A stretch of 64,000 nucleotides of DNA from Vibrio ishigakensis (GTDB lineage: Bacteria; Pseudomonadota; Gammaproteobacteria; Enterobacterales; Vibrionaceae): NCBI RefSeq assembly GCF_024347675.1, contig NZ_AP024882.1:1302001-1366000 (forward strand). Direction: 5' to 3'. A program made the translations under genes and the position numbers. Shown here one piece after another: positions 6,461-34,091 of the stretch; positions within the stretch are counted from its first letter, which is position 1, and every line of letters begins with the position of its first letter. Below the pieces are notes generated by a model. That model was not told where the DNA came from and searched no databases. It worked only from the letters and a program-made list of their open reading frames with translations.

Positions 6461-7906
6461 ATGAAAATGACTAATTTTAAGGGTTTTTGCGCCTTATTGG
6501 CGGCTATTGCCCTAGCTGGTTGTGCCCAACCATATCCGGAAATTGAAGCTGGTTTTGAATCCAACTGGCAAAGCCAAGACTATCAGGCAGATGTGTATTT
6601 AATCCCAGACTCAAATGAGGCTATTGCGCGCCGTGTTCAACTGGTACGTAATGCAAAAAGCAGTGTCGATATGACCTACTTTTCTTGGGAAAAGGACACA
6701 TTAGGTCTGATGCTGTTTAACGAACTCAAGCACGCAGCTGATCGTGGGGTTCATGTACGTCTAACCTTGGATGACCTGCTTGTATTCAATGATAAGTGGT
6801 TATCGGAAATCAGCACCCATGAAAATATCGAGGTGAAGATCTTTAACCCGTTTAATTCGCGAAAAATGGGCTGGATAGGACGCGCTGGTGACTTCTTATC
6901 AAACCAGAAAGACCTAGATAATCGACTGCATGAGAAGTATTTCAATGTCGATCATCAATACATGATTTTGGGCGGCCGTAACATAGGTGATGACTACTTT
7001 GGCTATAGCAAACAAGCAAACTTCTTTGATATGGATGTGCTGTTTAAAGGTGAGGTAATCGAGGCATTCCATCTGAACTATGAGTCTCTTTGGAACAGTG
7101 AACATCTAGTCCCAATGCAAGACTTGGTAAAGTCTAAAGATGGTGCGTTTGATAAGGCGCTCAAGAAAGCAAAACTAGATGAGTCTGACATCGTAAAGCG
7201 TGTGGAGCGAAAGGTTGCGCAGTTAGCTGAGCCAGAGTTCATCCATACCGAGGCAACGCCTGTGTTCGATTCGATAGAGAAGCTGAACGACAACAAGCCG
7301 TACTTTAGAACCCGAGCGGAGCAAACAGTAGAGAATGAACTTTCAAAGGCGAATGAGGTGATCATCTCAACACCTTATGTTGTGCCACATGACGGCGAGT
7401 TTCATGTGATAGATAGGCTTAGAGAGCAGGGCAGTAATGTAACACTGCTGACTAACTCATCGGCTTCGAATGATTCAGGTTTTATTCCTGCTTACTATGA
7501 GAAGCACAGGCAGACTTTGTTAAACAAAGGGGTCAACATCTACGAGTACCGTGATTCCGCTAAAAACAAGGATCACTACTTCCATGTTGATACCTACTAT
7601 CACAATAAGACGCTGATCATAGATAACAAGCTGACATTTATCGGTTCATCAAACTTTGACCCAAGATCGGACTTCCTGAACATCGAGTTTGGTTTGTTCG
7701 TGCAAAGTGAAGAGTTTGCAAAGCAAGTTGAGGCTTACCTACTCAGTGAAAAGGAGCAGCTTTTCTGGAGTGTTTCTCATAATGAACAAGGTGATACCGA
7801 GTGGCAAAGTGGAGATGAGGTTCGAACCAAAAATCCTAACTACAGTAGCTGGAATAAACTTCCTGATAGCATCTTTAGAAAGATGAATGGTGAGTTTGAG
7901 CTTTAA
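6461..7906 (+). CDS. phospholipase D/cardiolipin synthase-like lipoprotein
   Basis: A 481-residue protein with a lipobox (ALAGC, Cys 21). It has two complete HKD motifs: HEKYFNVD (His157, Lys159, Asp164) and HNKTLIID (His381, Lys383, Asp388), each followed by the usual GGRN or GSSNFD sequence. Two HKD motifs in one chain form a single phosphatidyltransferase or phosphodiesterase site. The domain order resembles ClsC-type cardiolipin synthases, but the lipoprotein anchor places the enzyme outside the inner membrane. It may act on phospholipids in the periplasmic or outer-membrane leaflet. Confidence 0.85.
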   Translation: MKMTNFKGFCALLAAIALAGCAQPYPEIEAGFESNWQSQDYQADVYLIPDSNEAIARRVQLVRNAKSSVDMTYFSWEKDTLGLMLFNELKHAADRGVHVRLTLDDLLVFNDKWLSEISTHENIEVKIFNPFNSRKMGWIGRAGDFLSNQKDLDNRLHEKYFNVDHQYMILGGRNIGDDYFGYSKQANFFDMDVLFKGEVIEAFHLNYESLWNSEHLVPMQDLVKSKDGAFDKALKKAKLDESDIVKRVERKVAQLAEPEFIHTEATPVFDSIEKLNDNKPYFRTRAEQTVENELSKANEVIISTPYVVPHDGEFHVIDRLREQGSNVTLLTNSSASNDSGFIPAYYEKHRQTLLNKGVNIYEYRDSAKNKDHYFHVDTYYHNKTLIIDNKLTFIGSSNFDPRSDFLNIEFGLFVQSEEFAKQVEAYLLSEKEQLFWSVSHNEQGDTEWQSGDEVRTKNPNYSSWNKLPDSIFRKMNGEFEL

Positions 7907-24226: not shown

Positions 24227-25393
24227 ATGAAAATTACAAATATTACTCCATACGTGATTAAAGTAGGTAGCCGCGACCAACTATTGGTTAAGGTTGAAAC
24301 TGATGCTGGAATATATGGTTGGGGTGAATCGGGCTTCTCAAGTCGTGAAAAGACCGTAGCTGAAATGCTAAAGCAATTCTCGCGCTTCTTAATTGGCCAA
24401 GACCCAATGAATACGGGCCGAATCTGGCAAGAGTGCTATCGTTCTCACTACTTCGAGGGCGGTCGTGTAACCACTGCGGCTATCTCTGCTATCGATATTG
24501 CACTGCACGATATTAAAGGTAAAGCTTTAGGCGTTCCTGTGTATCAACTTCTGGGTGGCAAACAGCGCAACAAGGTTAAAGCATTTGCTACAGTTCCTTG
24601 TGACACTAACGAGGTAATGATCGAGAAAGCACAGAAGATCAAAGATCTTGGGTGGGATACTATTCGCTTCGTTGGTTATGGTATCGATGACTACATGCAG
24701 GCAGGTGAGATGGTATGGGAACCATTGCCATCTATCGCCAAAACAGCTGAGATGCTAGTTCACGCTCGAGAAGCTCTAGGTCACAGCGTAGTGATTGGTC
24801 TAGAGTACCATCACCGTTTATCTGTGGCGCAAGCTGCTTCTTTCTGCCAGAAGATGCCAAGAGGTACGCTGGACTTCCTTGAAGAGCCGATTCGTGATGA
24901 GACTCCAGAGGCTTACGAGCAGTTGCGTACCCTTACCGACGTGCCATTTGCTATCGGTGAAGAGTTCCACTCTAAGTGGCAGTTTATGCCCTATATTGAG
25001 CGCGGAATTTTCCAATATAACCGCTTAGATATCTGTAACGTAGGTGGCTTTACCGAAGCAATGAAGGTCGCAGGTTGGAGTGAGACTCATTATATCGACC
25101 TCATGCTACACAACCCGCTCGGTCCAATTTGTACTGCGGCGTCTGTGCATTTTGCTGCTGCCATTCCAAACTTTGACAGCCTAGAGAGTCGTATCTCGCC
25201 AATAGAAAACCTTGGTTTTGACAACCCAGAATTGTTCCCGGTACAACCTAAACTGGCAGGAAATTACTATGAGATCCCAGAAGTTCCAGGTCTTGGTGTC
25301 GAAGTGAACGAAGAGATGCTCAAGAATGCGGTAATTGCTGACTGGGAGTGTGGTCACCTGACTCGCGAAGATGGCAGCGTACAGAACTGGTAA
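24227..25393 (+). CDS. enolase-superfamily dehydratase, D-galactonate dehydratase-like
   Basis: A 388-residue member of the mandelate racemase/galactonate dehydratase group, with an N-terminal capping domain and a C-terminal barrel ending DWECGHLTREDGSVQNW. Active-site positions run with a constant offset of ten from E. coli DgoD: His195, Glu219, Glu245 and His295 are kept. The first metal ligand, Asp in DgoD, is Glu193 here (LEYHHRLS). Members dehydrate sugar acids to 2-keto-3-deoxy acids. The context with DgoK and DgoA supports a six-carbon galactonate-type substrate. The exact epimer is uncertain because of the ligand change. Confidence 0.8.
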   Translation: MKITNITPYVIKVGSRDQLLVKVETDAGIYGWGESGFSSREKTVAEMLKQFSRFLIGQDPMNTGRIWQECYRSHYFEGGRVTTAAISAIDIALHDIKGKALGVPVYQLLGGKQRNKVKAFATVPCDTNEVMIEKAQKIKDLGWDTIRFVGYGIDDYMQAGEMVWEPLPSIAKTAEMLVHAREALGHSVVIGLEYHHRLSVAQAASFCQKMPRGTLDFLEEPIRDETPEAYEQLRTLTDVPFAIGEEFHSKWQFMPYIERGIFQYNRLDICNVGGFTEAMKVAGWSETHYIDLMLHNPLGPICTAASVHFAAAIPNFDSLESRISPIENLGFDNPELFPVQPKLAGNYYEIPEVPGLGVEVNEEMLKNAVIADWECGHLTREDGSVQNW

Positions 25394-25439
25394 TTCGCAA
25401 AAGCCTTTATGGAGACAACTGTAGAGGCTCTTAAAATAC

Positions 25440-25467
25440 ATAGCATGCGCAATTAGGCGTATGCTAT
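25440..25467 (+). other. stem-loop after the dehydratase gene
   Basis: ATAGCAT (25440-25446) and ATGCTAT (25461-25467) pair, with further inner pairs (GCGC with GCGT) giving an 11-bp stem. No T tract follows, so it may stabilise the 3' end of the transporter-dehydratase mRNA and not terminate it. Confidence 0.45.
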
Positions 25468-25659
25468 ATGTCAGTTTGCTGTCTGAACTAAATTATTTGG
25501 AAAAGATATTAGTTCGGCAGCTGGTAAATTACGTACAAATCTAATAATAAATGTTTCTTGATTGTAATTTTCTTATATTGCTCCCCCTTTGGTAACAAAG
25601 AAAATTTAATTAATCTATTTGCCATTTTTGTAAGCCTAAGCCCAACTGTTGCAACTTAC

Positions 25660-25750
25660 CCTTAGCCACTGGTGCAGTAGCGTTCGGTGCGACGCGCAGT
25701 CTGCGCTGAGGACTGTGAATACTAGCCATGCCTTTGTGCATGGCTTTTTA
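25660..25750 (+). ncRNA. candidate structured RNA ending in a terminator
   Basis: This lies within a 606-bp gap without a gene. Successive small hairpins can form: ACTG-GTG-CAGT (25668-25678), GCGT/ACGC (25680-25695) or the alternative GCGCA-GTC-TGCGC (25694-25706). They end in a strong terminator, AGCCATGC (25724-25731) with GCATGGCT (25738-25745), followed by T-rich sequence. The preceding gene ended 270 bp earlier, so this may be an independent small RNA or a leader/3' UTR element. The start is not defined. Confidence 0.4.
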
Positions 25751-25816
25751 TTTCTGTGATATCTATCTAATAATAATGATTGGTTAATTACTCTAAAAAT
25801 ACCAGCTACTTTGACT

Positions 25817-25833
25817 GTTCCATAGTATGGGAA
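25817..25833. promoter_or_regulatory. operator copy E of the sugar-acid regulon
   Basis: GTTCCATAGTATGGGAA fits KTYCCA-N5-TGGGAA. It lies about 170 bp before the second enolase-superfamily gene and after the candidate RNA terminator, so it probably controls a promoter for the cycloisomerase-dgoK-dgoA unit. Confidence 0.68.
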
Positions 25834-25999
25834 TAGCCTGCAGAAAACAGGATATAGATTGGGGCGAGCTATTAACTGAGTTAATATTATTTCAGTCCTT
25901 ATTTAATCTCATAAACAAATAATCGAATGTCTTTGGTTTAGGGATTAATTTAGTTTTAATTTAAGTGGGCAATATTTATATTGCCTAAGGTTGTATTAG

Positions 26000-27145
26000 A
26001 TGAAAATTGTAAATGTCATACCTCATGCAATCTCTGTCCCGTTACAAACGCCATTTTACTTTTCTCAAGGTTGGGTCCACGCAAGAAGCTCTTTGATCAT
26101 CGAGATCCAAACTGACGAAGGTATCACTGGTTATGGTGAGTCTTTATGTCACGGTTTGCAGAGCCCACACGTAGCGGCAGCCATGATTGAACACAGCCTA
26201 AAGCCACTCTTATTAGGCCGTTCTCCGTTCGATGTCGAGGTGCTTTGGGAGGAGATGTATAACCTTACCCGTCCGTATGGTCAGGCCGGTATCGCGGTCA
26301 ATGCCATTAGTGGTGTGGATATCGCTATCTGGGATGTGATTGGTCGAGCGCTAAACAAACCTATTCATTCTCTAATAGGTGGCGCCTTTAGAACCGAAGT
26401 TACTCCCTATGCAACAGGGTTTTATCGCACTGCAGTTCAGAGCTATCCAATGGCTTCTGTGGACGAGGCTCATACCTACTTAGAGTCAGGCTTTGAGGCG
26501 TTCAAGCTAAAGATAGGGTTTGGGGTAGATGAAGATATCGCTTTGATTGCGGCCGTTCGAGAATCAGTAGGGCCAAACGTGAAGATCTTAGCTGATGCCA
26601 ATGGAGCATATGATCTTGCGACAGCTCGTAAACTCGTCGGAGAAACAGAGTCATTAAATATTTATCTCTACGAAGAGTTGCTCAGTCCAGAGAACCTAAA
26701 AGGTTATAAATCCCTGAAATCCCACTCTACGCCGTTAATCGCTGCTGGAGAGCAGGTGTTCGGCAAGATGGGCTTTCAACCATGGCTTGCTGAGCGTGCA
26801 TTAGATGTTATCCAGCCAGATCTATGCTCCTCGGGTGGTATTACCGAATGTAAAAAGATAGCCGCTTTGGCCCAAGCAAACCATACCCAGATGATCCCGC
26901 ACGTATGGGGTTCTGGAGTGGGTATTGCAGCGTCTATCCAATTCATAGCATCACTGCCTTCTACGCCACTATCTCTAAATCCAACAGAACCTTTACTAGA
27001 GTTTGACCAGTCTTCTCATCCGTTTAGAACGGACCTTATTTTTGATGGTATTGAGATGAAAAATGGCAAGGTGCAGGTGCCAACTAAACCTGGCATCGGT
27101 GTAGAGGTGAATGAAGAAGTTATTGAAAAATATAAGGTTAACTAA
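26000..27145 (+). CDS. mandelate racemase-family enzyme, galactarolactone cycloisomerase-like
   Basis: A 381-residue enolase-superfamily protein of the mandelate racemase subgroup. It has the KxK catalytic pair (Lys169, Lys171 in FKLKIGFG), metal ligands Asp199/Asn201 (ADANGAYD), Glu225 or Glu226 and Glu251 (AAGEQ), and His301 (IPHVWGSGVG). The stretches IQPDLCSSGGITE, IPHVWGSGVGIAASIQF and NPTEPLLEFDQSSHPFR strongly resemble D-galactarolactone cycloisomerase (Gci). A ring-opening cycloisomerase step from a lactone or 3,6-anhydro acid to a 2-keto-3-deoxy acid would fit the downstream kinase and aldolase. The true substrate is not decided by sequence. Confidence 0.8.
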   Translation: MKIVNVIPHAISVPLQTPFYFSQGWVHARSSLIIEIQTDEGITGYGESLCHGLQSPHVAAAMIEHSLKPLLLGRSPFDVEVLWEEMYNLTRPYGQAGIAVNAISGVDIAIWDVIGRALNKPIHSLIGGAFRTEVTPYATGFYRTAVQSYPMASVDEAHTYLESGFEAFKLKIGFGVDEDIALIAAVRESVGPNVKILADANGAYDLATARKLVGETESLNIYLYEELLSPENLKGYKSLKSHSTPLIAAGEQVFGKMGFQPWLAERALDVIQPDLCSSGGITECKKIAALAQANHTQMIPHVWGSGVGIAASIQFIASLPSTPLSLNPTEPLLEFDQSSHPFRTDLIFDGIEMKNGKVQVPTKPGIGVEVNEEVIEKYKVN

Positions 27146-27172
27146 GACCTAACCAGACTGGAAAAGAAAGAA

Positions 27173-28087
27173 ATGAAAAATAGCAGCACAGTAACCTGGT
27201 TGATCTTGGACTGGGGAACAACAAATTTCCGAGCCTTTGCGATGAACAGTCGCAATGAGCTAGTCGGAAAAATCGAAAAGAAAATGGGGCTTCTTCAAGT
27301 CAATGAAGGGCGCTTCGCAGAAGCCTTGCAATTGGTTCTCGAAGAATGGCTTGGTGAATATCAGTCACTACCTATCGTCATGGCTGGCATGGTGGGTTCG
27401 GCTCAAGGTTGGGTAAACGTACCTTACGTCGAAACCCCAGTTTCAGTAAATGAACTAGCAAGAGAGTCACACCGTTTCACACTACCTTGGGGCGCAGACG
27501 CGGTCATAGTTCCAGGTATCAGCCATGCTGATATTGATGAGAGTTTTGATGTCATGCGCGGTGAAGAGGTGCAGCTTTTTGGCCTGCTCGAGAGGTTAAG
27601 CCAAAGCGAGGTTGAAGCAGTCTTTCCTGGGACACACAGTAAGCATATTCGAGTAGAAGAGGGCAGATTGACCTCGTTTAGAACCTATATGACGGGCGAG
27701 CTTTTTTCTGCTCTATCGGAGCACACTATTCTTGGTCGAGGTCTACCGGAGCAATCTCAATCCAGTGATTCATACCTCAAGGGTGTTCAAGAGAGTCATA
27801 ACGGTCACTTCACTAATCAACTATTTAAAACACGTACACACCGCTTATTTGAGAACCTGCCAGAGGTAGAAGTTCACGAATATCTATCGGGCTTACTGAT
27901 TGGTTCGGAACTGCGGCAGCTCGATGATGTAGGCATCTATCTGGTGGGTGGAGAGAAGCTTTGTGAGCGCTACACACAAGCGTGTGACTATTTAGAAAAA
28001 CCTAATCAATTCGTATCCGGTGACGACTGCTTTTTGGTCGGCATGTTAATAATTAAAGAGGCTTTAGCACAACATGAACCAGTTTAA
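27173..28087 (+). CDS. dgoK: 2-dehydro-3-deoxygalactonokinase
   Basis: A 304-residue protein of the DgoK family, with the N-terminal phosphate-binding LDWGTTNFRAF and further motifs VMAGMVGSAQGW, GISHADIDESFDVMRGEEVQLFG, FPGTHSKHI and TYMTGELFSAL. It phosphorylates 2-keto-3-deoxygalactonate with ATP. It starts 28 bp after the cycloisomerase gene and overlaps the aldolase gene by 14 bp, so the three form one operon. Confidence 0.93.
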   Translation: MKNSSTVTWLILDWGTTNFRAFAMNSRNELVGKIEKKMGLLQVNEGRFAEALQLVLEEWLGEYQSLPIVMAGMVGSAQGWVNVPYVETPVSVNELARESHRFTLPWGADAVIVPGISHADIDESFDVMRGEEVQLFGLLERLSQSEVEAVFPGTHSKHIRVEEGRLTSFRTYMTGELFSALSEHTILGRGLPEQSQSSDSYLKGVQESHNGHFTNQLFKTRTHRLFENLPEVEVHEYLSGLLIGSELRQLDDVGIYLVGGEKLCERYTQACDYLEKPNQFVSGDDCFLVGMLIIKEALAQHEPV

Positions 28088-28706
28088 TATTCAGCAGCAC
28101 TTCCCACTTATCGCCATCATTCGTGGTGTAACACCAGACAACTGTATTCAAGTCGCAGAAATCCTGATTGAAGAAGGCTTCACCATGATTGAGGTGCCTT
28201 TGAACTCACCGAAAGCTCTAGAAAGCATCCAAATTTTGGTAGAAAAATTCGGCGATGAATACTTGATTGGCGCTGGCACGGTAACAACGCCTGACAAAGC
28301 ACACGCTGTAATTGAGACGGGTGCTAAACTTGTGGTCACGCCAAACGTGAACCAAGATGTTATCCGCCTAGCTAGGAGTGCAGGTTGCGTTACCTTTCCA
28401 GGTGTTGTAACACCAACAGAGGCGTTCGATGCACTAGAAGCAGGTGCAACGGGTCTTAAATTGTTCCCGGTATCGAGTATTGGGCTAGATGGATTTAAAG
28501 CACTAAAAGATGTGTTGCCAGCAGAGACACTGTGCATGCCAGTAGGTGGTGTATCAGCTCATAAAGAGAGCTTAAAACCATTTGTAAACTTGGGCGCCAA
28601 TGGCTTTGGCCTAGGTTCAGCCCTGTATAAACCAACAATGAGCTTAGATGAAATCAGAGATAATGCTCGTGCGTTTGTCAGCGCATATAAAGAAGCGGTT
28701 GCGTAA
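28074..28706 (+). CDS. dgoA: 2-dehydro-3-deoxy-6-phosphogalactonate aldolase
   Basis: A 210-residue class I KDPG/KDPGal aldolase. HFPLIAIIRGVTPDNC holds the catalytic Glu/Arg region of the family start, GAGTVTTPDKA the phosphate loop, and TGLKLFPVSSIG the Schiff-base Lys. It cleaves KDPGal to pyruvate and glyceraldehyde 3-phosphate, the final step of the cluster. The ATG overlaps the end of dgoK, which indicates translational coupling. A strong terminator follows eight bases after the stop. Confidence 0.93.
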   Translation: MNQFNIQQHFPLIAIIRGVTPDNCIQVAEILIEEGFTMIEVPLNSPKALESIQILVEKFGDEYLIGAGTVTTPDKAHAVIETGAKLVVTPNVNQDVIRLARSAGCVTFPGVVTPTEAFDALEAGATGLKLFPVSSIGLDGFKALKDVLPAETLCMPVGGVSAHKESLKPFVNLGANGFGLGSALYKPTMSLDEIRDNARAFVSAYKEAVA

Positions 28707-28742: not shown

Positions 28743-29297
28743 TTATCTCCAATGGTACATGGCGGAGATACCAAAGAAGTTGATGTCGGGGCCACCGATA
28801 TCGTTGTACCAGGTGTATTCAAAGGCTCCTGACCAGTTTGGGTGGAACTGGTATTCAACGCCTGCACCTAGGTGTGGGGTCCAGCCATCGTCGTCTTCGA
28901 AGACGCCTTCACCATTTGCATCCCATTCGTATGCTTGGGTACCTAGTTTGCCAAAAATTGAGACTTTTTCGGCGACTTCATAGGAGGCTTTTGCAGTAAA
29001 GGTTAGAGCCTTGGCATCATAACTACCTGACACATCTTTAAGATCGGCTTCACCCAGATCGTGGTAACCAATTTCTAAGGCTAACCATTCATAGGCTTGG
29101 ATACCTGCAAATAGTGACCAAGAGAAGACGGTATCATCCACGCCAGTTACATCTGTAACTGCAGAGCCAAGGTCGCCAAAGTTTGAAGAACCGAGTTTTA
29201 CACCACCATAGAAGTGAGAGAAGGTGGCATTTTCGGCAGCAATTGAAGTAGAAGAGATAGCCATCATAAGTGGAGCGGCTAACAGGATTTTTTTCAT
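28743..29297 (-). CDS. small outer-membrane beta-barrel protein (OmpA-like barrel)
   Basis: A 184-residue protein with a Sec signal (MKKILLAAPLMMAISSTSIAA). It then has eight candidate strands with the OmpA/OmpW-like spacing, including HFYGGVKLGSSNFGDL, LALEIGYHDLG, VSIFGKLGTQAYEW and HLGAGVEYQF, and ends in MYHWR. There is no periplasmic OmpA C-terminal domain. Length fits an eight-strand barrel. It is transcribed in the same direction as the VpsT/CsgD-like gene 143 bp upstream. A functional link to the neighbouring fibre locus is possible but unproven. Confidence 0.75.
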   Translation of the reverse strand: MKKILLAAPLMMAISSTSIAAENATFSHFYGGVKLGSSNFGDLGSAVTDVTGVDDTVFSWSLFAGIQAYEWLALEIGYHDLGEADLKDVSGSYDAKALTFTAKASYEVAEKVSIFGKLGTQAYEWDANGEGVFEDDDGWTPHLGAGVEYQFHPNWSGAFEYTWYNDIGGPDINFFGISAMYHWR

Positions 29298-29440: not shown

Positions 29441-30079
29441 TTAGATGGTTAAACCATTGCCACGGCGAGCGTACTTGATAGCATCATGGCGGGAGTGCAC
29501 ATCTAACTTCTTGTATAGCTTATAGATATGGCTCTTAACCGTGCTCTCGGACAGGAATAATTTGGTCGCAATCTGTTGATTAGAGATACCGTAAGCAAGG
29601 AGTTCGAGGATCTGTCTCTCCCTAAATGTCAGCTCGCAGTTGCTGTGACTAACTGGAAGCTCAGATGAACGATAGCTGTTCAACAGCTTTTCCATATAGG
29701 GCCGAGGAAGCCAGAGACCACCGCTGAATATGTACTGGATGCTCTCGTTGATGTGTTTAATTTGAGCGTTGCGAAGTAGCAGTCCTTTGAGGACCTTCCA
29801 GCGCAAAAGCTTTTCATTGAAATGTTCTTCTGGAACATTGTGAATGAGAAGGGGCCACCCAAGCATATCAAAGTCAGGAACGAGGAATTTACGCTCCATG
29901 TCGTTAAGGTAGTCGTAATCAATGAGTACAAGATCGGCGATGAAGTTGTGGCTTTTGAAGACAGCCTCGACAGGCAGGAATCTATGTACCTCCGTGTTAG
30001 AAAGGGCTGATACCTGACGCTCTATCAAGCTTGTTTGTAGACTCTTTTCCGCAAGGATAAGAAGGTGTCGAGTTTCCAT
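29441..30079 (-). CDS. VpsT/CsgD-like LuxR-family response regulator
   Basis: A 212-residue protein with a degenerate receiver domain (about residues 1-130) and a C-terminal LuxR helix-turn-helix (about 149-206: LTFRERQILELLAYGISNQQIATKLFLSESTVKSHIYKLY). The receiver lacks a usual phospho-acceptor layout, as in CsgD and VpsT. At residues 123-126 it has WLPR, close to the W[FLM][TS]R cyclic-di-GMP motif of VpsT (established for VpsT), with Pro at the third position. It is divergent from the secreted-protein operon 545 bp away and is the natural candidate for its activator. Confidence 0.83.
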   Translation of the reverse strand: METRHLLILAEKSLQTSLIERQVSALSNTEVHRFLPVEAVFKSHNFIADLVLIDYDYLNDMERKFLVPDFDMLGWPLLIHNVPEEHFNEKLLRWKVLKGLLLRNAQIKHINESIQYIFSGGLWLPRPYMEKLLNSYRSSELPVSHSNCELTFRERQILELLAYGISNQQIATKLFLSESTVKSHIYKLYKKLDVHSRHDAIKYARRGNGLTI

Positions 30080-30413
30080 AATTTTCTTCGTTTAGTGGAT
30101 AACACGATACAACAAAATCTTCGCAACTAAACTGAACCACTGCATTAATTTCCATGTATCAATTATAGTGCAAAGCTTCTCTCTACATGGGCTTCTGGCC
30201 TTAGTTCAGTGCCAGTAAAGGAGGGTAAATACTGAGTGAAAGTATGAGAATGAAAAACAAAAATTAAGACTATTTTCATACTTGTTGGTAGCAAGGTGCT
30301 GATTTTTTGCTGAAAACCACTGTAACAACTAGCGATAACTAACCCTTAGGGACTAGATAAATTTCCTCCCATAATACTTTCCTCAGCCTTTCATCTAGGG
30401 CTATTTCATACTC

Positions 30414-30536
30414 CAAGCAACTTCTTCGAAATTGCTTGCAATATTTTGTTTTAATTGGATTTTTTTGTACTATGAACCTTGTGTGACAGTATGTGTCTGG
30501 AACGGCGTACATAAAGAAAAGTTCCCTACCTATAAT
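30414..30536 (+). promoter_or_regulatory. upstream region of the secreted-protein operon: inverted repeat and -10 box
   Basis: The 545-bp gap before the operon holds a perfect inverted repeat, CAAGCAA (30414-30420) and TTGCTTG (30432-30438) with an 11-bp spacer. A good TATAAT lies at 30531-30536 with no matching -35 hexamer. GGAAC (30499-30503) and GTTCC (30521-30525) flank the -35 position. A strong -10 without -35 is typical of activator-dependent promoters. The 25-bp repeat is a candidate site for the adjacent LuxR-type regulator. The rest of the gap is AT-rich without clear features. Confidence 0.45.
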
Positions 30537-30624
30537 CGAAATGCTCTTGCAAGGTTGGCAGGGGTGGAAGGTTAGTTTTTGTAATTTTCTAAATCGTAAA
30601 AGTTAGGAACCTGGAGTACATATT

Positions 30625-31533
30625 ATGACTCTGAACAAGACAAGTTTAGCTATTGCTCTAGCTGCAATGTTGTTTGGTGGTAATGCATTGGCAGATAGAG
30701 GTGGTTATAAACACCACGGCGCATCTGATGACATTCATGTAGATAATTATGTCGATGATGGTAATGGCAACAATCAATGGGAAGATAGTGCCAATCATAC
30801 TGATAGCTACAACGATAAATCTGACAACAGCACCGTAACTAAAAACGATGCTAGTAATACAGCGAAGGATAGCTTTAACGATAAATCTGACAATAGCATG
30901 GTCGATAAGTCTGACAACAGTACTGTTAACAAGAGTGACTCTAGTCAAAGTGCAAAAGACAGTTTCAATGACAAATCAGACTCAAGCCTAACTCGTAGTC
31001 AGAATGATAACTCCGACAACAGTACGGTGGACAAATCTGATAACAGTACAGTTAATAAAAGTGACTCTAGTCAAAATGCTAAAGACAGCTTCAATGACAA
31101 ATCAGATTCAAGCTTAACCCGTAGTCAGAATGATAACTCTGACAACAGTACAACTGATAAATCTGATAACAGCACTGTTACCAGAAACGATGCTAAAGAC
31201 AGTTTCAATACTGACTCTAGTACCAACTACAAAAACAGCTTCAACGACAGAAGCACAACTACTAATACTACAAACAACATCACAATGGATGCCGACGTAG
31301 TTATCGCTAACTCGAACCAAATGGGTTTCGTGGCAGCAAATAATGTGTCGAATGCCGGTAGCGGTGGTTTCTTGCGTCGCCCTGGTGGCGGTGGTGCTAT
31401 GAACCTAAACAGCACTAACAACCTCGGCGGTCTTGGTGGTGCAGCAGGTATTACCTCAGTTGCACAATCTGCTGGAGCAAACAATTTGATCCAACAAAAC
31501 GTGACAACCAACGCCAGCGTTCTAACCGACTAA
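30625..31533 (+). CDS. secreted low-complexity Asp/Asn/Ser-repeat protein, candidate fibre subunit
   Basis: A 302-residue protein of unknown family. It has a Sec signal ending GNALA at residue 23, then DRGGYKHHG. Residues 50-225 are built from degenerate units of the form DKSDNSTVNKSDSS and AKDSFNDKSDSS, including a 42-residue tandem repeat. The C-terminal 70 residues are Gly/Asn-rich and end with ITSVAQSAGANNLIQQNV, a pattern shared with the two smaller exported proteins of the operon. Composition and repeats resemble functional amyloid or adhesin subunits. It is the first gene of a four-gene operon with an exported C39 peptidase. I infer an extracellular structural role. Confidence 0.8.
   Translation: MTLNKTSLAIALAAMLFGGNALADRGGYKHHGASDDIHVDNYVDDGNGNNQWEDSANHTDSYNDKSDNSTVTKNDASNTAKDSFNDKSDNSMVDKSDNSTVNKSDSSQSAKDSFNDKSDSSLTRSQNDNSDNSTVDKSDNSTVNKSDSSQNAKDSFNDKSDSSLTRSQNDNSDNSTTDKSDNSTVTRNDAKDSFNTDSSTNYKNSFNDRSTTTNTTNNITMDADVVIANSNQMGFVAANNVSNAGSGGFLRRPGGGGAMNLNSTNNLGGLGGAAGITSVAQSAGANNLIQQNVTTNASVLTD
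30952..31191 (+). repeat. 126-bp tandem repeat inside the secreted-protein gene
   Basis: Two copies, 30952-31077 and 31078-31191 (the second shortened at its end), encode residues 110-151 and 152-189. The units begin AKDSFNDKSDSSLTRSQNDN and differ mainly at synonymous positions. A third, diverged and shorter copy precedes them. Such repeats can vary in number between strains. Confidence 0.88.
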
Positions 31534-31550
31534 GTTGTTAGGAGAGTACG

Positions 31551-31874
31551 ATGCGATTGGCACTGTGTACTATCAGTTTGGTATTTGCTAGCACTGTTTA
31601 TGCTGATGAGATAGCTCTGCCGGATGAGTTAGTTTCGGTCGATGAGATGCAACAGTCCCGTGGTGGTCAACATATAGAGCTTGACTACACGAGTCTTGCT
31701 TCAGATATCGATGGATTCAGCTCAGGAAATTCAGCAATCAATACAGTGAATGGCAATAACGTACTGTCGTCAGGTGCGTTCGCGGACAGTTCTGGTATTT
31801 CGAATGTTATTCAAAATACTGGGAATAACGTACTGATACAGAACTCAACCGTCGTCAACCTGACTTTAAAGTAG
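31551..31874 (+). CDS. small Sec-exported protein with double-glycine leader (candidate minor fibre subunit)
   Basis: A 107-residue protein with AGGAGAG before its ATG. The signal peptide ends TVYA at residue 18. It is followed by an acidic segment, DEIALPDELVSVDEM, and the motif SRGG (Gly38-Gly39). Counting back from the GG, Met is at -7, Glu at -8 and Val at -12, which matches double-glycine leader spacing. The mature part (68 residues) is Asn/Ser-rich and contains ISNVIQNTGNNVLIQNS, an amyloid-like motif also found in its operon partners. The gene lies 17 bp after the repeat-protein gene and 4 bp before the C39 peptidase gene. Confidence 0.8.
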   Translation: MRLALCTISLVFASTVYADEIALPDELVSVDEMQQSRGGQHIELDYTSLASDIDGFSSGNSAINTVNGNNVLSSGAFADSSGISNVIQNTGNNVLIQNSTVVNLTLK

Positions 31875-31878
31875 AGTT

Positions 31879-32559
31879 ATGAAGAAGGTAAGGTATGGAG
31901 TAGTAGGGTTGATGCTGGCAATGTCAGCATCAACCTTTGCTATTGAGTTTTTGCCACACAGAGCCAATTATTCTGTGCCGGTAAAAAGCTATAAAGAGAT
32001 GCTTTTTGGTGACGTTTATCGTCAGCAATATGATTTCAGTTGTGGTTCAGCCGCATTGGCGACTTTACTGGAGTTTCACTACGACAGACCATCCAAAGAA
32101 CAGCAAATCTTTGATGCCATGTATGCGAATGGTGACAAAGAACTTATTAGTCAACAGGGCTTTTCCTTGTTGGATATGAAGCATTATCTGCAATCGGTCG
32201 GTTTGAATGCCGACGGATTCAAACTAAGCCTCGAAAAAATGCGCAAAACGGGAGTACCGGGGATAACCTTGGTTAACTTCGATGGATACATGCATTTTGT
32301 AGTAATTCGAGGAATCAATAATAACAACGTAATCTTGGGTGACCCATCAAGAGGCACCTTGGTATTACCTATAGAGGTATTTCAAGAGTATTATCAAGGG
32401 CTTGTGTTGCTAGTTCGCAATGAAGCAACAGTAGGACGAGCAGGCTTTATCACGGACGAGAACTTTTCAATTTATCAGGCCTCACCGCTAGAGACAGGTG
32501 TTAATCGCGACTCTCTTGGCGTGTATAGCATTACATTACCGAATGCTGGAGACTACTAG
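31879..32559 (+). CDS. Sec-exported C39-family peptidase (FapD-like)
   Basis: A 226-residue protein with a signal peptide (residues 1-21). The C39 core follows: YRQQYDFSCGSAALATLLEFHY with the oxyanion Gln (49 or 50) and Cys55, YMHFVVIRG with His139, and ILGDPSRGT with Asp155. The whole catalytic set is present. C39 enzymes normally cut double-glycine leaders as the cytosolic domain of ABC exporters. Here the enzyme stands alone and is exported, like FapD of the Pseudomonas Fap amyloid system (established comparison). Its likely substrates are the flanking gene products, both of which carry RGG leaders (inference). Confidence 0.88.
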   Translation: MKKVRYGVVGLMLAMSASTFAIEFLPHRANYSVPVKSYKEMLFGDVYRQQYDFSCGSAALATLLEFHYDRPSKEQQIFDAMYANGDKELISQQGFSLLDMKHYLQSVGLNADGFKLSLEKMRKTGVPGITLVNFDGYMHFVVIRGINNNNVILGDPSRGTLVLPIEVFQEYYQGLVLLVRNEATVGRAGFITDENFSIYQASPLETGVNRDSLGVYSITLPNAGDY

Positions 32560-32567
32560 GAGTTCCT

Positions 32568-33101
32568 ATGATGGCCAGAAAACTTATCGTCGCATTTGCC
32601 CTCTGTATTCTTCCTGTGAGTTTCCTGCATGCTGACGAAATATCTCTGCCTGAGAGTCAGGTAGTAGACAACCAAACATTATCTAGTATGCGTGGCGGGT
32701 TTCAGATTGGCGGAGACTACATTGTGGATATTGGGATTAGTATTGCCGCCGCTGTGAATGGCGAGAATATTTACCGTACCACCATTGCCAATTTGGTTTT
32801 TAAAAACGGCACACTTACGTCAACTGGCGGGACATCTGTAGGCAACGAGCCTGTTCCTGCAAATCTGGTTAATGTAGTTCAAGTGGGTGAGGGGAATGTA
32901 ATTGAAAACCCGCCTTCGCCCGAAGCACCTACCCCTGGAATTGTTGACTCGAGCGTGATTAATATTATCCAAAATACTGTAGATAACAGTGTGATAGGTA
33001 TTAATACCATAGTGGATATTGATGCGAGAGTGGACAGCATTAACAAGCAGATCCAAGCTGACCTTCGTCTGAAAGATGCCCTGCTAAATCATAGACAATA
33101 G
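32568..33101 (+). CDS. Sec-exported protein with double-glycine leader, second candidate fibre subunit
   Basis: A 177-residue protein with AGGAG before ATGATG. The signal ends FLHA at residue 22, then DEISLPESQVVDNQTLSSM and RGG (Arg42-Gly44). Leader positions -4 Met, -7 Leu and -12 Val fit the double-glycine pattern, and the segment after the signal peptide is alike in the 107-residue protein. The mature part has a predicted beta-rich start (YIVDIGISIAAAVNG) and two N/Q motifs, LVNVVQVGEGNVIEN and VINIIQNTVDNSVIG. It ends in a charged helix. Its stop codon abuts the stop codon of the convergent barrel gene. Confidence 0.8.
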   Translation: MMARKLIVAFALCILPVSFLHADEISLPESQVVDNQTLSSMRGGFQIGGDYIVDIGISIAAAVNGENIYRTTIANLVFKNGTLTSTGGTSVGNEPVPANLVNVVQVGEGNVIENPPSPEAPTPGIVDSSVINIIQNTVDNSVIGINTIVDIDARVDSINKQIQADLRLKDALLNHRQ

Positions 33102-34091
33102 TTAGAAGTAATATGGCACTCTAACCGTTAACTGGAAGTCTGGAGAGTCTTCCGTCAAGCCCGCCTGAGCGCTCACATTCAAAGAGGAGCGCTGATTCAA
33201 TCTTAGGTTTACCCCAACATTGAGTGAGTCTAGATGCAGTAACTTGGCATCGTCCGATTCACGTCCATCGACCTTACTTTTCAGAATCGTCTTATGGGTT
33301 ACGCCTAAGGAGAAAGAGAGGTCAGGATTTACCGCAAAGCCCATACCACCGCCAATGGAGATGGTATCCCCAAGATCCACCTCTACGTCTTGTCCATTAA
33401 CGTCTACTTTGTCTTTTATGTTGTAGATGTAACTGATGTTGGCAAAAAGCACGGCCGGATCAGATGGGTATAGCATGGTAAGACTCGGCTCAAGACTCCA
33501 GAATCCTGAGCCTGTAGAGACTTCTTCTAAGGTGTTTGTTGTTTCATCGATGTCGATATCGTAGGGAGAACGTCCTGTACGGGTTTTTAGGCGTATTCCG
33601 CCAATCCAGTAGGGTGTTGTGTCAAAGTTAAACTGATGCCTCAAACCGAGTTCAAGATCGCCAATATCACCGCCACTGTTTGAACGATTAATGATGTCGT
33701 TATCACCGGAGCCATCTTGTATCGGTCTGACAGTGGTCTGGTTGTTTCGATACACATAAGGAAGGCGCAGTTCAAATTCAGTTGCGTTGGTAAGGCCTAG
33801 TCTCGCGGTGAGGCCAAGCGTTGCGGTGACATAGTCCGCGTCACTGACTTCAATGCGTCCTATGATCAGGGTTGGAAGCACAGTGTAGCCCACAACCGAT
33901 ACGCGGTTGGATGAGTTTTGGGTAAAGCTGAGAGAGGTTTCCAGAGACCAAGTCCCTTTTGGGGAGAGCACTCCGCGCTTTTCTATAACGTCACTTACGG
34001 TTAGGGTTACTTCGCTACCATCCTCGGCAAATGCGCTTTGGCCGAGAAGCAATAATGCGGTAGCACACCCGATAATAGGTTTCCCTAACAT
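33102..34091 (-). CDS. outer-membrane beta-barrel protein, possible secretion channel of the fibre system
   Basis: The ATG at 34091 was preferred because AAGGA lies seven bases upstream and a signal peptide begins there (MLGKPIIGCATALLLLGQSAFA), although the frame extends to 34190. The 329-residue product has repeated amphipathic strands (GTWSLETSLSFTQ, LGLTARLGLTNATEFELRLPYVYR, DIGDLELGLRHQF, SLNVSAQAGLTEDSPDFQLTVRVPYYF) and a terminal Phe. The pattern is like the Phenol_MetA_deg/transporter barrels. Its position opposite the exported subunits suggests a FapF-like export pore, but the N-terminal coiled coil of FapF is not seen. Confidence 0.68.
   Translation of the reverse strand: MLGKPIIGCATALLLLGQSAFAEDGSEVTLTVSDVIEKRGVLSPKGTWSLETSLSFTQNSSNRVSVVGYTVLPTLIIGRIEVSDADYVTATLGLTARLGLTNATEFELRLPYVYRNNQTTVRPIQDGSGDNDIINRSNSGGDIGDLELGLRHQFNFDTTPYWIGGIRLKTRTGRSPYDIDIDETTNTLEEVSTGSGFWSLEPSLTMLYPSDPAVLFANISYIYNIKDKVDVNGQDVEVDLGDTISIGGGMGFAVNPDLSFSLGVTHKTILKSKVDGRESDDAKLLHLDSLNVGVNLRLNQRSSLNVSAQAGLTEDSPDFQLTVRVPYYF

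Follow-up and report, generated by a model that had tools for sequence, protein, structure and literature searches.

The locus described here lies in a 64,000-nucleotide stretch of Vibrio ishigakensis DNA (contig NZ_AP024882.1; the window), where six genes at positions 29441-34091 form a gene set related to the Fap amyloid system of Pseudomonas. A CsgD/VpsT-like LuxR-family regulator gene on the reverse strand (29441-30079) is separated by a divergent intergenic region of 545 bases (30080-30624) from a forward-strand operon of four genes. These are A (30625-31533), encoding an exported low-complexity protein of 302 aa and candidate major subunit; B (31551-31874), encoding an exported protein of 107 aa; a gene for a C39 peptidase of 226 aa (31879-32559); and C (32568-33101), encoding an exported protein of 177 aa. 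The gaps between the four are 17, 4 and 8 bases, and a reverse-strand gene for a FapF-type outer-membrane barrel of 329 aa (33102-34091) converges on C with adjoining stop codons. The signal peptides of A, B, the peptidase, C and the barrel were judged by eye from the sequence. All six genes stand where the first-pass annotation, which had described a regulator facing an operon and a converging barrel gene, had placed them.

That annotation likened the set to Fap in its logic, and profile hidden Markov model searches and a fold search extend the parallel: the peptidase is a FapD relative and the barrel has a FapF-type fold, so that both are homologues of the Fap proteins and not mere analogues. 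The peptidase, with Cys55 within QQYDFSCG, matches Peptidase_C39 in Pfam (E 2e-20) and, among NCBIfam models, FapD (131 bits; cut-off 330) and FilB (104 bits); its solved relatives are the peptidase domains of C39 ATP-binding cassette (ABC) transporters of the PCAT1 type. The barrel matches FapF (153 bits over profile positions 98-420) and FilC (47 bits), and FapF is matched by all 40 of the barrels compared. As a yardstick we used a canonical Fap locus (L057) found in one of 148 Vibrio genomes, which encodes FapB (182 aa), FapC (1277 aa, with many repeats), FapD, FapE and FapF (464 aa) and scores 51, 311, 264, 30 and 387 bits, respectively, against the five families. Because only FapC exceeds its cut-off even in this locus, scores below the cut-off say little.

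The structure predicted for the barrel, with a predicted local distance difference test score (pLDDT) of 80.8, retrieves FapF crystal chains at ranks 1-18 of a fold search (E 2.8e-20 to 2.1e-16), followed by a COG4313 channel (3.4e-11), and compares with the FapF structure at template modelling (TM) scores of 0.73/0.82. The model places a helix at residues 32-37 ahead of the first strand, consistent with the helix plug of the FapF barrel. The stretch up to the first strand motif is short in all 43 Vibrionaceae barrels, at 39-85 open reading frame (ORF) residues, and runs to 117-226 ORF residues elsewhere (start motif located in 26 of 35), with stretches that look like coiled coils by eye. The Vibrionaceae barrels have therefore lost, or never had, the FapF coiled coil.

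Of the three exported proteins, A is rich in Asn, Ser and Asp (Ser, Asn, Asp, Thr and Gly make up 64% after residue 25), its gene contains a 126-bp tandem repeat (30880-31180), and its length ranges from 156 to 434 ORF residues across 25 proteins of the Vibrio set, window included. It is poorly conserved outside the C-terminus, where a segment of 46 aa (31393-31530) matches the VIQNTGNNVLIQN segment at the C-terminus of B in profile comparison (probability 96.5%, E 9.4e-10, 0 of 40 column shuffles as high). The C-terminal segments of B and C match at 92.5% (E 5e-7), and the common Asn/Gln-rich end suggests that the three proteins assemble together. None of the window's A, B and C matches a Pfam or NCBIfam family at E <= 0.001. 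FapB and FapC repeats were not found in the window's genome; no control genome matched either, and the same model gave 311 bits on L057. The repeats of FapC, compared with the profiles of A, B and C, reach probabilities of 2%, 13% and 0.2%, none significant, the FapC–A control row being unreliable (5 of 40 shuffles scored as high, and one gave an aberrant 130). The subunits are thus not recognisable as FapB or FapC, as had been proposed; a likeness seen by eye between FapC repeats and the C-termini of A and B was dropped as unsupported by the profile comparison. A probable relation of C to FapE had been overlooked: the FapE family matches 8 of 35 C proteins (best 6.6e-4), the window's C not among them, and by position and motif C is probably FapE-related.

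With the window's peptidase as query, 36 of 148 Vibrio genomes contain a C39 match at E <= 0.001. In 27 of these, the window's own included, the match is of the window type (E <= 1.2e-72); in one other genome (G071) the best match is canonical Fap, and in eight the matches are weak (best E 1.2e-7 to 9.3e-4). The gene set recurs across 26 further Vibrio loci (L031-L056) and is not a chance grouping. A (through ORF reading in L053 and L054), the peptidase and C are present in all 26; B is present in 25, the exception (L043) being a 3.4-kb contig that starts at C39; the regulator is present in 25, the contig of L041 ending before its position; and the barrel lies within the stretch in 24, that of L031 being ∼7 kb away and L043 having none. 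The peptidase of one locus (L056; G090, 6767-7455) is read as two ORFs, and a plasmid of Vibrio sp. SCSIO 43009 (L241, 5668-6676) has B as well as C39 split, which reflects decay or sequencing error.

The system is not confined to Vibrio. A search with B finds matches in 69 of 296 Vibrionaceae genomes, and B has 2708 homologues at E <= 0.001, its relatives being encoded in 173 stretches of GTDB contigs, of which the best 80 were kept (L058-L137). Genera with B-type loci are Vibrio, Photobacterium, Thaumasiovibrio, Cupriavidus, Ralstonia, Lysobacter, Methylobacter, Dechloromonas, Azohydromonas, Dyella and others. Among these best 80 of 173 loci, where B is present by construction because it was used for retrieval, C39 occurs in 79, C in 78 and the barrel in 78, whereas the A C-terminus occurs in 46 and the regulator in 27. 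The near-constancy of the former against the patchiness of the latter identifies B–C39–C–barrel as the core; A is more variable, and the regulator is a Vibrio addition. It adjoins the operon in 23 of 24 Vibrio loci and in none of the 19 Photobacterium/Thaumasiovibrio loci of this set, so it is not, as the first-pass annotation had implied, a part of the system in general; the other four regulator matches are distant LuxR-type proteins (22-54 bits) encoded kilobases away in other genera. C39 matches also fall on 29 plasmid records, of which three were inspected. B, C39, C and barrel are all encoded in the laboratory strain Cupriavidus metallidurans CH34 and on a Vibrio plasmid, and a plasmid locus of the alphaproteobacterium Croceicoccus has an identical gene order with a weak B (47 bits). 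The idea of an undescribed Vibrio system accordingly fails as to genus, with loci across Gamma- and Betaproteobacteria and one alphaproteobacterial plasmid, and holds in that we found no description among titles and abstract openings of the open-licence PMC literature. Many Vibrio and Photobacterium homologues of B (among the best 120 of 2708) are named 'carbon storage regulator' in NCBI and UniRef, an ill fit for an exported protein of 107 aa and likely a naming error.

We compared this lineage with canonical Fap in a C39 tree of 74 rows comprising the window, 34 of the 80 loci, L057 and all 38 loci L198-L235. The 44 B-type rows, so labelled because they contain B, with the C39 score as a further basis for L208 and L210-L217 (the B of L210 is weak, at 17 bits), lie on one side of a branch with support 100/99. 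The 11 canonical Fap rows lie elsewhere, and four 'other' rows fall among them. A barrel tree omitting L116, L219, L225 and L232, which have no barrel, agrees with weaker support (43 rows on one side; Shimodaira–Hasegawa-like approximate likelihood ratio test 87). One genome (G331) holds both types (L201 and L208), and the canonical Fap of L057 and the window-type locus are different systems. The separate C39 group and the co-occurrence in G331 together mark a separate lineage, nearest to Fap within the sample; the C39 tree is unrooted, and strict sister status hinges on the root. Loci L220-L234 are further gammaproteobacterial pairs of C39 and barrel that fall outside both canonical Fap and the B-type lineage in the C39 tree.

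B and C carry a common LxxxRGG motif that is probably a double-glycine-like leader and the predicted site of C39 trimming. In the window it reads R37-G38-G39 in B (31659-31667) and R42-G43-G44 followed by F45 in C (32691-32702). Counted with models built partly from motif-trimmed B and C sequences, C has R[GA]GF in 74 of 78 proteins (absent in L100, L104, L105 and L133, with RGGY in L100 and L104), always with Leu or Met four residues before the Arg (74/74). B has R[GA] in 78 of 80 (not L107 or L134), with Leu or Met at the same distance in 77 of 78; the residue that follows is Gly in 63, Lys in 6, Arg in 4, Gln in 2 and Thr, Glu or Ala in one each (n = 78). R42, G44 and F45 are invariant among 35 C sequences, as are R37 and G38 in 19 B sequences, and the C motif is retained behind 32 to 465 ORF residues, counts into which the signal peptide and perhaps some over-long starts enter. 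Nine residues ahead of the Arg, B and C alike have another position that is mostly hydrophobic, and this is the hydrophobic spacing of the double-glycine leader consensus. In the predicted structure of C, a helix at residues 35-41 would end at the motif, with modest confidence. On the enzyme side, Q..CG around the catalytic cysteine is present in 79 of 79 C39 proteins of the best 80 loci and HF[VIL] in 78. Searches with bacteriocin-leader families gave little: 4 of 35 C proteins match a GG-type family of ribosomally synthesized and post-translationally modified peptides (best 0.033), individual C proteins match three bacteriocin families (0.043 to 0.2) and none of 19 B proteins matches any. 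The RGG of A (ADRGG in the window) was considered as a third leader and rejected, since it is not conserved among A homologues.

Related motifs occur beyond B and C. Canonical-type FapE has [LM]..[LMIQ]RG[RK][FY] at the equivalent place in 11 of 11 proteins (L057, L198-L205, L207 and L209, of which L209 is an 'other' row of the C39 tree; the FapE of L206 yielded none under the rule used). Barrels from outside the Vibrionaceae have [LMIV]xxxR[GA]G ahead of the barrel in 17 of 43 (shuffles: mean 1.12, maximum 5), a strict count that leaves out L209 and, as does the looser count, L212 (<60 residues before the barrel). A looser motif is found in 29 of 44 (shuffles: mean 13.0, maximum 22) and in 2 of 11 canonical FapF proteins. 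RGG sites occur in B, C and barrel of one cluster in C. metallidurans CH34, and the Croceicoccus C has RGGI. FapD activity is required for Fap secretion and FapD C38A abolishes it, the first ∼70 residues of FapE yielded no peptides in mass spectrometry, and Rouse and others put forward FapE, and perhaps the linker of FapF as well, as targets of FapD cleavage (PMC5557850). The motif patterns point the same way and give that proposal an exact site.

The regulator combines a receiver-like domain with a LuxR-type helix–turn–helix, the architecture of CsgD and VpsT. It matches GerE (3.4e-20), VpsT-like_REC (5.3e-5, below the curated cut-off) and CsgD (98 bits; cut-off 250), and its best solved relative is VpsT (3kln, 2e-18). 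The VpsT motif for cyclic di-GMP (c-di-GMP) is W[FLM][ST]R; 26 of 26 regulators have W[LMI]PR instead (W-L-P-R in the window), and c-di-GMP binding is therefore not to be assumed. The window's intergenic region contains AGTATGA/TCATACT at 30241, 30276 and 30406. Of 24 orthologous intergenic regions, the window's among them, 19 contain TCATACT, with a total of 32 copies where 30 shuffles lead one to expect 2.2; the count omits L046 and L048, where the regulator does not face A, and L041, which has none. Because the commonest 7-mer of the shuffled regions reached 43 copies in 18 regions, TCATACT counts only by the excess over its own expectation, and we regard these as candidate regulator sites.

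We put the probability at roughly 0.6 that the locus, of a lineage beside Fap, encodes a secretion system for fibre or matrix in which B and C are trimmed by the C39 peptidase; the fibre or matrix role raised in the first-pass annotation remains plausible. From the recurring gene set, the homology of peptidase and barrel, the separate C39 group, the conserved motifs and the C-termini common to A and B and to B and C, we infer the following path. A, B, the peptidase and C would cross the inner membrane by Sec, and the peptidase would cut B and C in the periplasm after the LxxxRGG leader, removing a pro-region that may keep them from being secreted or from polymerising. Together with A, the mature forms of B and C would then leave through the FapF-type barrel and assemble on the surface as fibres, possibly amyloid, with A as the main, length-variable subunit, B as a partner or nucleator through the C-terminal segment it has in common with A, and C as a FapE-like anchor. 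Within Vibrio, the CsgD/VpsT-like regulator would turn the operon on with biofilm growth. A stronger version of this proposal holds that the locus represents a second deep Fap-type lineage with non-homologous or unrecognisable main subunits, that a single periplasmic C39 peptidase processes B and C, and in some genera also the barrel, at LxxxRGG, and that RG[RK] of FapE is the same site; we consider it an even bet.

Several observations weigh against the proposed system. The chief caveat is that canonical FapE has RG[RK] and not RGG, and six Vibrio B homologues have RGK or RGQ; together these argue against simple cutting at GG, and the motif may instead serve for recognition or have a structural role. 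The models used for the motif counts are biased to motif-bearing matches, the Croceicoccus B has no RGG, the linker motif of the barrels is patchy (8 of 26 genus labels, with 9 of the 17 from Cupriavidus) and the model of C is poor (pLDDT 61). As to the relation with Fap, the window's barrel lacks the periplasmic coiled coil of FapF, FilC is matched by 40 of 40 barrels just as FapF is, the FapC repeats have no significant counterpart in A, B or C, and the A and C segments match each other weakly (3%, though 0 of 40 shuffles were as high). If RGG is a docking or structural element, the peptidase might be a chaperone or cut elsewhere, and the variants in FapE and in the six B homologues would then be unsurprising. 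We think this doubtful, though deserving of serious consideration, because the leader-like hydrophobic spacing, the retention of the motif behind a very variable pro-region and the intact catalytic motifs of the peptidase speak for cleavage, as does the loss of Fap secretion in FapD C38A (PMC5557850).

Two other explanations concern the nature of the secreted material. A, B and C may be soluble matrix, surface-coat or signalling proteins that leave through a Fap-type exporter, a non-fibrous role that would suit the low complexity of A, its weak conservation outside the C-terminus and the lack of family matches for all three; the conserved Asn/Gln-rich segment common to A and B argues the other way, as does the fact that Fap, the characterised FapD–FapF system, exports amyloid subunits (PMC6173800), and we judge this role unlikely. 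The locus might instead be an ordinary but divergent Fap operon, with A and B as degenerate FapC and FapB and C as FapE. The order of subunits, D and E with a separate barrel is a known Fap variant, the similarity to FapD, FapF and FapE fits, and Fap was reported in Vibrio in 2013 as deviating from the single fapABCDEF operon (PMC3792158). However, canonical Vibrio Fap is another locus, with its 1277-aa FapC at 311 bits, a FapB, a FapE and a longer FapF; the two types stand together in G331, their C39 groups are separate and the FapC repeats are unmatched in A, B and C, which makes this explanation slightly less likely again than the non-fibrous one.

The fibre or matrix system proposed here appears to be a widespread, undescribed relative of Fap secretion with secreted subunits of its own. 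The Vibrio Fap reported in 2013 had 16 FapC repeats and one FapB repeat (PMC3792158); the FapC of L057, with 14 repeats by a strict pattern, resembles it, unlike the window locus. In 2018, co-located fapD and fapF homologues were noted in five further phyla and the FapD substrate was called undetermined (PMC6173800); by 2025 the enzyme was 'thought' to act on FapE and FapF (PMC12822426). The same 2025 report, a survey of GTDB v226, called Fap evolutionarily 'fixed', and counted loci with FapB/C repeats near another fap gene (PMC12822426), a requirement by which the window lineage would be missed. In the open-licence PMC literature we found no title or abstract opening that describes the lineage, and no mention of five V. 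campbellii locus tags around VIBHAR_03495. If the proposal is right, Fap-type secretion is broader and its subunits differ, and the motif conserved in B, C, some barrels and, as a counterpart, FapE offers an exact site for the question of the FapD substrate.

Two features of the surrounding DNA are not counted in the system. A small OmpA-like barrel gene (28743-29297) adjoins the regulator and is present in 6 of the 26 other Vibrio loci. Further upstream (24227-28706), two mandelate-racemase/enolase-like genes, a sugar-kinase-like gene and an aldolase-like gene have, by eye, the look of a galactonate-type sugar-acid pathway.

Among known systems, the locus is closest to Fap, with which it has in common a periplasmic C39 peptidase, a FapF-type barrel and a weakly FapE-like protein after the peptidase; some Fap loci also have a separate barrel gene (PMC3792158). 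It differs in that no FapB/FapC repeats were found in the window system and A and B are other subunits, in having RGG in place of RG[RK], in the absence of the coiled coil from Vibrionaceae barrels and in its separate C39 group. Curli resemble it in the CsgD-like regulator adjoining the operon and in small exported proteins with Asn/Gln-rich segments, whereas the exporter and peptidase are of the Fap type and CsgG has no match in the window's genome (4 of 14 control genomes matched), which confirms the predicted absence of csgG, the search having covered neither csgE nor csgF. The putative Fil pilus system of Acinetobacter (FilB and FilC in NCBIfam) also pairs a C39 peptidase with a barrel, but the window's proteins score lower against it than against Fap (FilB 104 versus FapD 131 bits; FilC 47 versus FapF 153 bits). 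Finally, double-glycine leader peptides and C39 ABC transporters of the PCAT1 type have the same C39 domain and leader-like spacing; here, in contrast, peptidase and substrates have signal peptides, so that cutting would be periplasmic and separate from any ABC transporter.

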